Of a DNA stretch of 64,000 nucleotides, positions 11,025-13,521 are shown piece by piece (position 1 is the first letter of the stretch; each line of letters opens with the position of its first letter). The translations under genes were made by a program, and so were the position numbers. The stretch covers positions 3,100,001 to 3,164,000 of the forward strand of contig NZ_CP062165.1 in the NCBI RefSeq assembly GCF_014844075.1, written 5' to 3'. Source of the stretch: Paenibacillus sp. JNUCC-31 (GTDB taxonomy: Bacteria; Bacillota; Bacilli; Paenibacillales; Paenibacillaceae). The notes below the pieces were generated by a model, which searched no databases, was not told where the DNA came from, and was given only the letters and a program-made list of their open reading frames with translations.

Positions 11025-11204
11025 TTATTCAATCGGCTTTTTTATTTGTGCTTTCTCTCTATTATACTGATTGATTAAATCATCCAATACCATTGACTGT
11101 TTGATTACTGCGGGGTGTTGAACCCCCCTGTGCTTTTTTGCCAGGGCGTGAAGGCGAGTCCTGGCACGTTCAATACGCAACTGTATGAGAAGGCTTCTTT
11201 TCAT
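11025..11204 (-). CDS. Spo0E-like aspartyl-phosphate phosphatase
   Basis: A 59-residue two-helix protein. Spo0E-family phosphatases remove phosphate from Spo0A~P and delay sporulation. The sequence shows the expected layout: a basic first helix (LLIQLRIERARTRLHALAKK), a turn (HRGVQHPAVI) and a second helix with the signature-like SMVLDDLINQYNRE (family pattern S-x-x-LD-x-LI-x-x-Y). The start is at the ATG at 11204 because AAAGGAGGA lies 8 bases upstream; the frame is open to 11273. It lies downstream of, and on the same strand as, the peptide-regulator pair but has its own region behind a terminator. Confidence 0.8.
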   Translation of the reverse strand: MKRSLLIQLRIERARTRLHALAKKHRGVQHPAVIKQSMVLDDLINQYNREKAQIKKPIE

Positions 11205-11470
11205 AGAACCCCATCCTCCTTTATGATATTTTAGGATATGTTGACAGATAATAACATAATCTTTTAAAGGCACAAAAACGATGAAAGCTAACTCTTAGGA
11301 AACTCGAAAATACCTTGTGGTAAATTTTCTATTTCATGAACCCTCTCAAAGATTCAGTATTGAACCATTTGAACAAATCATTTACATAAGATCAGAATCA
11401 AACATGCGTATTCCCCAATATTGCATCCCATATCCATAATTCAGGAAAGCAATCATTTCTTAAACAAACG

Positions 11471-11503
11471 AAAAAGGGCGCTCCCGAGGATCAGGAACAC
11501 CCT
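11471..11503 (-). terminator. Terminator of the HTH-TPR regulator / peptide operon
   Basis: On the minus strand AGGGTGTTCC pairs with GGGAGCGCCCT around an 8-base loop and is followed by TTTTT. It lies about 20 bases past the peptide gene stop. The remaining gap to 11205 holds no other recognisable feature. Confidence 0.75.
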
Positions 11504-11521: not shown

Positions 11522-11623
11522 TTAAGTACCCCAACCATGCCCCATTGTAGCCAACATTATTGGCGTAGATACGACAATAGCAACACTACAGAGAACCAAG
11601 TAGTATAACGTTTTTTTTCGCAT
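11522..11623 (-). CDS. Small exported peptide, candidate AloP/Phr-like signal precursor
   Basis: A 33-residue peptide: basic start MRKK, a hydrophobic segment LYYLVLCSVAIVVSTPIML, and a short polar Gly-rich tail ATMGHGWGT. This is the layout of Phr, PapR and AimP-type pro-peptides, which are exported, cut, and read inside neighbouring cells by a TPR regulator. The gene overlaps the 3' end of the HTH-TPR regulator gene by 38 bases on the same strand, as phr and aimP genes often do. GAGGTG lies 12 bases before the ATG, the same ribosome-site word as the regulator uses. The mature signal would be the last five to seven residues, for example GHGWGT. Not proven. Confidence 0.7.
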   Translation of the reverse strand: MRKKTLYYLVLCSVAIVVSTPIMLATMGHGWGT

Positions 11624-12986
11624 TGAGCCGATGCACCTCACTTGATAGTTTTTTGAATTTCTCTTTCGCTTCGAGATCCGCACAATCTCTATATTGCTCA
11701 AAAAGAGCCATACAAGTAATGATATTTTTTCCACTATTTATTGTAATCGATAAATTCAAACCTTCTAACACAAGTTTTATTGCAGTATCAGCATCCTTGC
11801 TTGCATTGAAACGATACACAGCCAGATCACCGAGGAATTGGGCGTAGCTCTCTTTTAAAATAGTCGGCTTATACTCCCCAAACTCCGTTTTGTCTGATTG
11901 ATAGGGGATATATGCTGCAAAACGCTCTAAGATGCTATCAATATCCAATCCATATAAATTGGCTGCTTGGACCATGTACCTTACAGCAATAAATATTTCA
12001 TCTTCTTGCGATGCTATGTAATCCGCATATACGTGCAAAACATCCACTTCTCCGGACATTAAGCGATAGAGAAATGTGTTCGCAACGGCCCATTCCGAAA
12101 ATTGTCCAACAATCCGTTTGGCTTCCTCATCCTTTTCTTGAACCCAACTTTTCCCGCCAGCATACAGGGATACAAATTCCAATGCTCTTTTGTAGTCTCC
12201 ACACTCTTCACTGGCCACTGATCGAGCCAGATAAGCATAAAGAATATAGTAATACAAAGGTCGTTCCGTCCCTTTCTGGGCTTCTTCTGATCGTTCAGAT
12301 CGACATTGTAAATCATACTGAATCGTTGCAATCCGATGCATTTCCTTGGCTAAAGCATCGACTTTTGCCCATTTGTGAACCATTCCAAAAACGTGCATCA
12401 ATTGTTTTAAAGCTTCAAGCTGATCCGCTTCATCGAGACGGTTAACGTACAGCTCAAATTGAGTTGCCGCACGCACATTCTCTTCCAAATCCTCTCCCAA
12501 ATCAATCAGGAACAAACGGTAATGACACAGCGCGAGCCGCTCAGAATGCTGATACTTTTCTGCCTCACGCACACTCCTATATAAAATCCCTGCAGCCGAA
12601 CGTTTGTTATTGGCAAACAACTTTTCAGCTATATCAAAAAGCACAGAGACATAGGAGAGATCATCCAATAGACGATTAACAATTTGTTCGACACAATCCA
12701 AACGATCTAATTCAGCGCAACGAATAATAAACGGCCGGATGCGCCGGATGGAGATCAAAAAGGAAAAGCATTCATCTATGTAATCATCAAAAAAGAAGTC
12801 TTCGGGTAATCCCATCCCTGCGGTAATAGCGACAAGCTGGCTCATAGATATGGGTTTATTCCCCTGCAAAATACGGCTAAGTGTACCGGAATTAATACCA
12901 GATATTTCAGCAAACTGAGAATGTATAATATAGTTACTTTGCATATGTTGCATCAGTTTTTTTCGAATTGAATTTGTAGACTCCAA
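11586..12986 (-). CDS. HTH-TPR regulator, AimR/AloR-like (RNPP-type) peptide receptor
   Basis: A 466-residue cytoplasmic regulator. Residues 5-60 form an XRE-like helix-turn-helix (FAEISGINSGTLSRILQGNK, then PISMSQLVAITAGMGLPEDF). The rest is all-helical with TPR-like pairs (AAGILYRSVREAEKYQHSER, DYKRALEFVSLYAGG, DADTAIKLVLEGLNLS). This fits RNPP receptors and the AimR-like AloR proteins described in Paenibacillus. The frame opens at 13001, but GAGGTG sits 7 bases before the TTG at 12986, which is taken as start. The small peptide gene overlaps its end. A small XRE gene lies divergent. Target genes are unknown. Confidence 0.8.
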   Translation of the reverse strand: MESTNSIRKKLMQHMQSNYIIHSQFAEISGINSGTLSRILQGNKPISMSQLVAITAGMGLPEDFFFDDYIDECFSFLISIRRIRPFIIRCAELDRLDCVEQIVNRLLDDLSYVSVLFDIAEKLFANNKRSAAGILYRSVREAEKYQHSERLALCHYRLFLIDLGEDLEENVRAATQFELYVNRLDEADQLEALKQLMHVFGMVHKWAKVDALAKEMHRIATIQYDLQCRSERSEEAQKGTERPLYYYILYAYLARSVASEECGDYKRALEFVSLYAGGKSWVQEKDEEAKRIVGQFSEWAVANTFLYRLMSGEVDVLHVYADYIASQEDEIFIAVRYMVQAANLYGLDIDSILERFAAYIPYQSDKTEFGEYKPTILKESYAQFLGDLAVYRFNASKDADTAIKLVLEGLNLSITINSGKNIITCMALFEQYRDCADLEAKEKFKKLSSEVHRLNAKKNVILLGSL

Positions 12987-13045
12987 TACAAAACACCTCA
13001 CGCAAAAAAAACCAAAAAATAGGATTACATACCTATATATAACTT

Positions 13046-13074
13046 ATCTTAGTTAGGAATCAACCATCGGTCAA
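13046..13074 (-). promoter_or_regulatory. Likely sigma-A promoter of the HTH-TPR regulator
   Basis: On the minus strand TTGACC (13074-13069) and TAAGAT (13051-13046) are separated by 17 bases, about 60 bases before the TTG start. The 13002-13302 gap otherwise holds the hairpin at 13096 and two AACTATAG words near 13204 and 13217. Confidence 0.5.
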
Positions 13075-13127: not shown

Positions 13128-13302
13128 CCCCTTCCCCTATAAATAACCCGGCAAAGGCTTCTGGAAAGCCGTTAAATTTGGCCAATCTAATTATACATAA
13201 CGAACTATAGATCTACAACTATAGTACATGTTTATTAGATCGTTATAACTTCAACGCAACTCATATACAATTTTGTCTATACCATGTATAAGGGGTTATA
13301 AC

Positions 13303-13521
13303 GTGAAATTAAAAGAGGCACGCGAAGCAGCAGGATATACACAAGAATCTCTAGTATTAAAAATCAACGAATTTATGAAATGTACCCTACGACATTATCA
13401 GAATATCGAATATGGACTAAAAATCCCCAGTGTTGTCCTCGGCCTACTTATCGCTAAATTGTGCCGGATCGATGCGAATACTGTGGACGAATGGAAGATC
13501 AGGAATAAAGAAATTCAGTAA
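13303..13521 (+). CDS. Small XRE family DNA-binding protein
   Basis: A 72-residue single-domain helix-turn-helix protein. The Cro/CI fold is visible as LKEAREAAGYTQESLVLKIN, FMKCTLRHYQNIEYGLKIPS and LGLLIAKLCRIDANTVDEWK. GTG at 13303 is taken as start because AGGGG lies 8 bases upstream; the frame could be read from a TTG at 13273. It faces away from the HTH-TPR receptor, which suggests a shared regulatory region. The target is unknown. Confidence 0.75.
   Translation: MKLKEAREAAGYTQESLVLKINEFMKCTLRHYQNIEYGLKIPSVVLGLLIAKLCRIDANTVDEWKIRNKEIQ

Follow-up and report, generated by a model that had tools for sequence, protein, structure and literature searches.

The locus described here belongs to a known signalling family of Paenibacillus and comprises the genes for a receptor and, overlapping it, a signal peptide, together with a likely target in sporulation control. 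It lies in a stretch of 64,000 nucleotides from Paenibacillus sp. JNUCC-31 (contig NZ_CP062165.1), which is referred to as the window. The gene anatomy, the membership in the AloR family, the conserved overlap and tail of the peptide gene and the linkage to spo0E are observed at the locus. Very probably it functions as a chromosomal Alo quorum-sensing unit, in which a propeptide would be exported, a six-residue signal (GHGWGT) would bind AloR and the expression of spo0E would be controlled.

Organization of the locus

Table 1. Features of the Alo-type locus (window positions).
Feature	Position	Strand	Remarks
aloR-type receptor gene	11589..12986, stop codon 11586-11588	minus	466 aa
aloP-type propeptide gene	11522..11623	minus	33 codons plus stop, MRKKTLYYLVLCSVAIVVSTPIMLATMGHGWGT; offset and tail conserved
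Codons for putative mature signal GHGWGT	11525..11542	minus	register of SHGRGG; variation at third base only
Terminator-like hairpin and T-run, 3' of aloP	11475..11503	minus	13 pairs
Promoter-like site of aloR (TTGACC, 17 nt, TAAGAT)	13046..13074	minus	scan and conservation
Conserved element TGTCA-N7-CTAAAATAT, directly before the spo0E ribosome site	11226..11246	minus	candidate promoter/operator element
spo0E-like gene, likely target	11025..11204	minus	59 aa; PF09388

As stated in a preliminary description of the locus, the reading frames of the receptor (11586-13001, minus strand) and of the 33-codon peptide gene overlap by 38 nt (11586-11623). The likely start codon of the receptor gene is the TTG at 12986, 7 nt behind a GAGGTG sequence. 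The ATG of the peptide gene follows a second GAGGTG at a distance of 10 nt, and the propeptide ends with TMGHGWGT; the shared ribosome site and the MGHGWGT end noticed earlier are thus both present.

Where a terminator was reported to follow the pair, a terminator-like hairpin is found. Since a scan of the region gave five terminator-like sites versus 2.6 in shuffled sequences, a single site of this kind is weak evidence. The promoter scan gave eight sites versus 9.4 in shuffles and is therefore discounted; the weight of the promoter-like site of aloR rests on conservation, the TTGACC block being kept in most of 17 aligned upstream regions. Upstream of aloR and divergent from it lies a small HTH_3-like ORF (13273-13518, plus strand; E 1.8e-4, just under the cut-off).

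The spo0E-like gene does not appear in the preliminary description. It starts approximately 270 nt beyond the terminator-like hairpin and matches PF09388 with 46.7 bits (cut-off 23).

The receptor is a member of the AloR family

AloR is listed as a validated RRNPP subfamily, and units of this type beside spo0E have been indicated for phages and for P. polymyxa (PMC10075063). AloR homologues were originally selected by an MMseqs2 E below 1e-10 and a length of at least 250 aa (PMC7425212). In the present analysis, which used programs other than those of the papers, the window receptor shares 33% identity with AloR13 over 444 aligned positions (466 and 460 aa, respectively; E 1.9e-73 in the genome search). 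Identity to a receptor (L158) encoded by plasmid NZ_CP024796.1 of P. polymyxa ATCC 842 is 39% over 466 aa, and the end of that receptor gene is overlapped by a 43-aa peptide ORF. In the genus genome G025 the published AloP13 propeptide is present letter for letter; the receptor preceding it (L141) is the one that gave the 33% identity. The TTG start is common to the window receptor gene and the AloR13 gene: the latter likewise reads TTGGAAAATGCAACC, and the published cloning primer begins ATGGAAAATGCAACC at this position.

Alo receptors are characterized by an N-terminal HTH and a TPR-like domain at the C-terminus. The window receptor has a putative N-terminal HTH and a long C-terminal part resembling helical repeats. 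It had been introduced as an HTH-TPR protein. Its own Pfam matches are weak, with HTH foremost and HTH_3 under the cut-off; an HTH was found in most relatives. TPR repeats were not detected by Pfam in the window receptor, and TPR_2 was matched weakly in 11 of 105 relatives. Searching solved structures gave only weak matches, mainly small HTH proteins. Among 8000 candidates scored, 366 are receptor relatives at E up to 0.001, the closest being a protein of P. amylolyticus (94% identity).

The pair was previously likened to both AimR and AloR. The likeness to AloR stands, with the identities given above and a peptide tail in register with that of AloP13, whereas kinship with AimR is distant. AloR and AimR have been placed in one structural clan (PMC12700828), which explains the earlier comparison. 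An arbitrium (AimR-AimP) lysis-lysogeny module, or its domesticated remnant, would also comprise an HTH receptor and a peptide, and the AimR family model NF038310 gives weak hits to 23 of 105 relatives (E up to 0.1; best E 5.5e-6). However, the window receptor does not match this model (NCBIfam gave none for it up to E 1) and is much closer to AloR. Pfam revealed no phage families among 20 neighbouring ORFs in the range of 2.3 to 30.7 kb (two gave no match at all; some smaller ORFs lie outside the set), in agreement with the former view that phage genes do not surround the pair. Furthermore, 66 of 75 genus genomes (its own included) have relatives of the receptor (E up to 1e-100), scattered over their chromosomes. 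With the AimR model unmatched and the 20 neighbours free of phage families, an arbitrium module or remnant is extremely unlikely and was rejected. Because of the homology to AloR13, the conserved peptide ORF with its HGxG core and offset, and the lack of phage genes among the 20 neighbours, the locus is assigned to the Alo systems.

The propeptide carries a conserved HGxG tail

Homologous loci were collected from named genomes; of 297 confirmed ones, the best 80 were retained. All are titled Paenibacillus, except one titled 'Bacillus sp. FJAT-27264'. The Alo systems are delimited to hosts of the Paenibacillaceae, the family to which the host of the window locus belongs. A leader-type peptide ORF is found near the receptor end in 65 of these best 80 loci, and in 53 of the 65 it begins 38 nt inside the receptor gene. 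No intact peptide ORF was seen in the scan of the remaining 15. All 65 peptides contain HGxG within their last 20 residues, with the histidine 5-8 residues from the end in 60 and 15 residues from the end in five (L096, L105, L108, L112 and L121); at three loci a second candidate ORF without HGxG was passed over in the choice of the peptide. Elsewhere in the same loci, HGxG occupies this place in 12 of 5438 ORFs of 25-65 aa, which were filtered by length only, without the leader and ribosome-site filters. The comparison of homologues proposed in the preliminary description hence does not refute the pair: where the peptide ORF is intact, its tail is conserved.

In 15 orthologous peptides, including that of the window, the histidine and both core glycines are invariant and their codons differ only at the third base, a pattern of purifying selection on the tail codons. 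The other residues of the putative signal vary: the first is Gly, Ser or Thr (11/3/1), the fourth Trp, Ala or Ser (12/2/1) and the last Thr or Gly (10/5). A chance ORF was rejected on the basis of the conserved ORF, offset and tail compared with the background, and of the third-base-only variation. The family does not share HGxG throughout: the tails of most G025 receptors other than AloR13 lack it (e.g. TIGGA, HIGGS, VGGS).

The window propeptide, with 33 aa, a hydrophobic stretch (Kyte-Doolittle window) and the overlap of 38 nt, falls within the definition of Alo propeptides, namely ORFs of 32-50 aa with a hydrophobic N-terminal helix that overlap the receptor gene or lie directly behind it. 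Of 14 predicted Alo peptides, nine were detected as fragments in the medium, and a six-residue signal, SHGRGG, was deduced for AloP13 (PMC7425212). By analogy, GHGWGT is the presumed signal of the window locus, and its processing and its control of spo0E would resemble those of AloP13. The exact ends of GHGWGT are putative.

A membrane-active, toxin-like small protein would also have a basic start, a single hydrophobic stretch and no long secreted part, and the ORF gives weak one-helix matches to PsbZ/Ycf9. Its conserved part, however, is the polar HGxG tail, and this aligns with a signal for which processing products were observed in the medium (PMC7425212). We therefore consider a toxin-like product very unlikely and retain the signal precursor. 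The PsbZ/Ycf9 matches (E 0.0005 and 0.006, under the cut-offs) were read as the match of one hydrophobic helix, and this identity of the peptide was rejected.

A receptor clade with short propeptides

A quick maximum-likelihood tree was calculated for 97 receptors; L075, L093 and L140 were dropped as too short. The window receptor is located in a clade of 21 tree rows (support 99) with 20 named members. A second receptor from one of the stretches (row L094) is positioned outside this clade, as are all 13 receptors of the P. polymyxa-like genome G025. AloR13 is found elsewhere in the tree, on a long branch.

An intact peptide is present in 14 of the 20 named clade members, and all 14 peptides have 31-34 aa (for L055, L056 and L060 a longer in-frame start is also present). 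The other named peptides have 40-51 aa in 49 of 51 cases, the exceptions being L097 and L117 with 33-34 aa. The short class has a gap of -2 to 9 residues between the hydrophobic core and the histidine, the long class one of 11 to 23. In the peptides of the window clade the leader is thus joined to the signal with hardly any linker or none.

For the other six named members the scan showed no intact peptide. Tail-like remnants persist at L045 and L053, and no peptide was seen at L050, L051, L062 and L070. A Spo0E-like gene is present at all six loci, and some of these receptors end early. They are possibly receptors without a signal of their own.

Because of the difference in length and the shorter core-to-histidine gap, the clade may represent a linkerless Alo subtype, in which a single cleavage at the leader's end would free the signal, with no second step from a secreted propeptide. 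We put this reading forward tentatively, as possible but short of probable. For AloP13 the data suggest a second-step release from the secreted propeptide (PMC7425212), and varied propeptide architectures and modes of maturation have been discussed (PMC9765709). Since a very short propeptide can be cut at few sites, it makes the question of RRNPP signal maturation easier to test.

Linkage to spo0E and a candidate upstream element

The spo0E-like gene of the window is placed as in the arrangement tested for Alo13. Within 1.6 kb, a Spo0E-like gene lies behind 12 of the 20 named members of the clade and behind 37 of the 80 named loci (best 80 of 297; for two of the 80 the sequence on that side ends short of 1.6 kb). 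Its absence from this range at the other 8 and 43 loci, respectively, would suit a true Alo pair that acts mainly on its own operon or on other alo loci. This is also suggested by the AloP13 peptide, which in P. polymyxa additionally lowers the expression of other aloP genes (PMC7425212). On the other hand, a Spo0E-like gene is present here and at three of the five other full-length receptors of the same genome, and direct control of spo0E was shown for Alo13. A main target other than spo0E is rather unlikely, and spo0E is kept as the likely target.

In several Alo clades the element TGNCA-N7-CTAAAATAT immediately precedes the ribosome site of spo0E, which makes it a lead to a candidate AloR operator. 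In the 7.55-Mb genome it has three exact sites, each before an alo-linked spo0E-like gene; two of these three sites had helped to shape the search pattern. With up to one mismatch there are nine sites versus 12 for the reversed control. The genome has eight spo0E-like genes, of which seven were compared in their upstream regions. No counterpart of the element is evident upstream of spo0E in Alo13. At G000:C1:3074347-3074546 (L160, L152), a spo0E-like gene is preceded by a one-mismatch element of the alo type and has no AloR match beside it.

Paralogues and relatives on mobile elements

Eight receptor matches (E up to 0.01) are present in the genome of the window, six of them full-length. A peptide ORF is found behind four of the six (that of the window, L003, L004 and L005); none was found behind L002 and L006. 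Four of the six also have a Spo0E-like gene behind them, namely the window receptor (L001), L003, L004 and L006. Two of the paralogue tails are NDHGLGT and NGHGTGS. L005 and L006 are tandem AloR paralogues (G000:C1:3830640-3833653). The first has a peptide with the tail STHGGAGL; two Spo0E-like genes lie behind the second.

In phage and plasmid collections, receptor relatives occur in two phage and 35 plasmid records, while the peptide alone as query matched one plasmid record. Phage units beside spo0E have been predicted before (PMC10075063). Brevibacillus phage SecTim467 (L156, KT151957.1, 2664-4487) encodes an AloR relative (29% over 96%, E 4e-45). A gene annotated as Spo0E directly precedes it, and the ORF that overlaps the receptor end has no hydrophobic leader. 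The relative in Brevibacillus phage Emery (L167, KC595516.1, 1908-3391) is 24% identical over 63% of the query and is followed by a 43-aa leader-type ORF (gp61) containing HGGIGW twice (...SAHGGIGWISGDIKPFHGGIGW). Judged by this repeat, gp61 possibly carries a phage Alo-like signal in two copies. The Paenibacillus sonchi plasmid NZ_CP068596.1 (L157, 2989-6109) bears an orthologue with 77.9% identity, behind which a frame with the GHGWGT tail is found (start codon ambiguous); a gene annotated as Spo0E family is located 1.5 kb downstream.

Proposed mechanism

In the proposed scheme, aloR and aloP would be transcribed as one short message and the AloP leader would export the propeptide. The C-terminal residues, approximately six (GHGWGT), would be released and build up with cell density. 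An oligopeptide permease would re-import GHGWGT, which would then bind AloR. Free AloR is expected to activate the promoter of the separate spo0E-like gene beyond the terminator and the bound form is not. Less Spo0E-type phosphatase would allow Spo0A-phosphate to rise, favoring sporulation or another stationary-phase behaviour. The six-residue signal, the sign of control and the target are carried over from AloR13, where the adjacent P. polymyxa spo0E-like gene is switched on by the receptor and off by SHGRGG (PMC7425212). Sec export and Opp uptake are presumed from descriptions of RRNPP systems (PMC7425212, PMC9765709).

Comparison with known systems

In the papers searched by text, 'GHGWGT', 'SHGWGT' and 'MGHGWG' did not occur, and 'SHGRGG' occurred in one. 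No paper on the window clade was listed. The main text of PMC7425212 does not use the word 'motif'; its figures and supplementary tables, which cover P. polymyxa and P. terrae peptides, may nevertheless include the clade as well as the HGxG core. Since the Alo system itself is already known, the surprise is modest, and the part worth testing is the short propeptide subtype. The locus adds one more crowd-sensing unit tied to Spo0E-type sporulation control in Paenibacillus, with HGxG as the common core of the 65 peptides read and GHGWGT as a testable code word for an Alo clade outside P. polymyxa.

The AimR-AimP systems of Bacillus phages resemble the locus in an HTH-TPR receptor (putative for the window), adjoining peptide gene and structural clan (PMC12700828). 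They differ in being phage-borne, in controlling lysis-lysogeny and in using DPG-type peptides (PMC12700828). Arbitrium receptors control a downstream aimX-type lysogeny regulator; the gene downstream of the window pair is Spo0E-like.

The L158 pair has the same architecture, but its 43-aa propeptide ends with STQGYIGGA and no spo0E-like gene is annotated in the stretch shown. Alo13 of P. polymyxa ATCC 842 (PMC7425212) shares the HTH-type receptor, the overlapping downstream propeptide, the spo0E-like gene downstream and a His-Gly-x-Gly hexapeptide tail in register (SHGRGG versus GHGWGT). It differs in its distant receptor on a separate tree branch, in the spo0E upstream region and in AloP13, which has 44 aa with a long linker, compared with 33 aa in the window.
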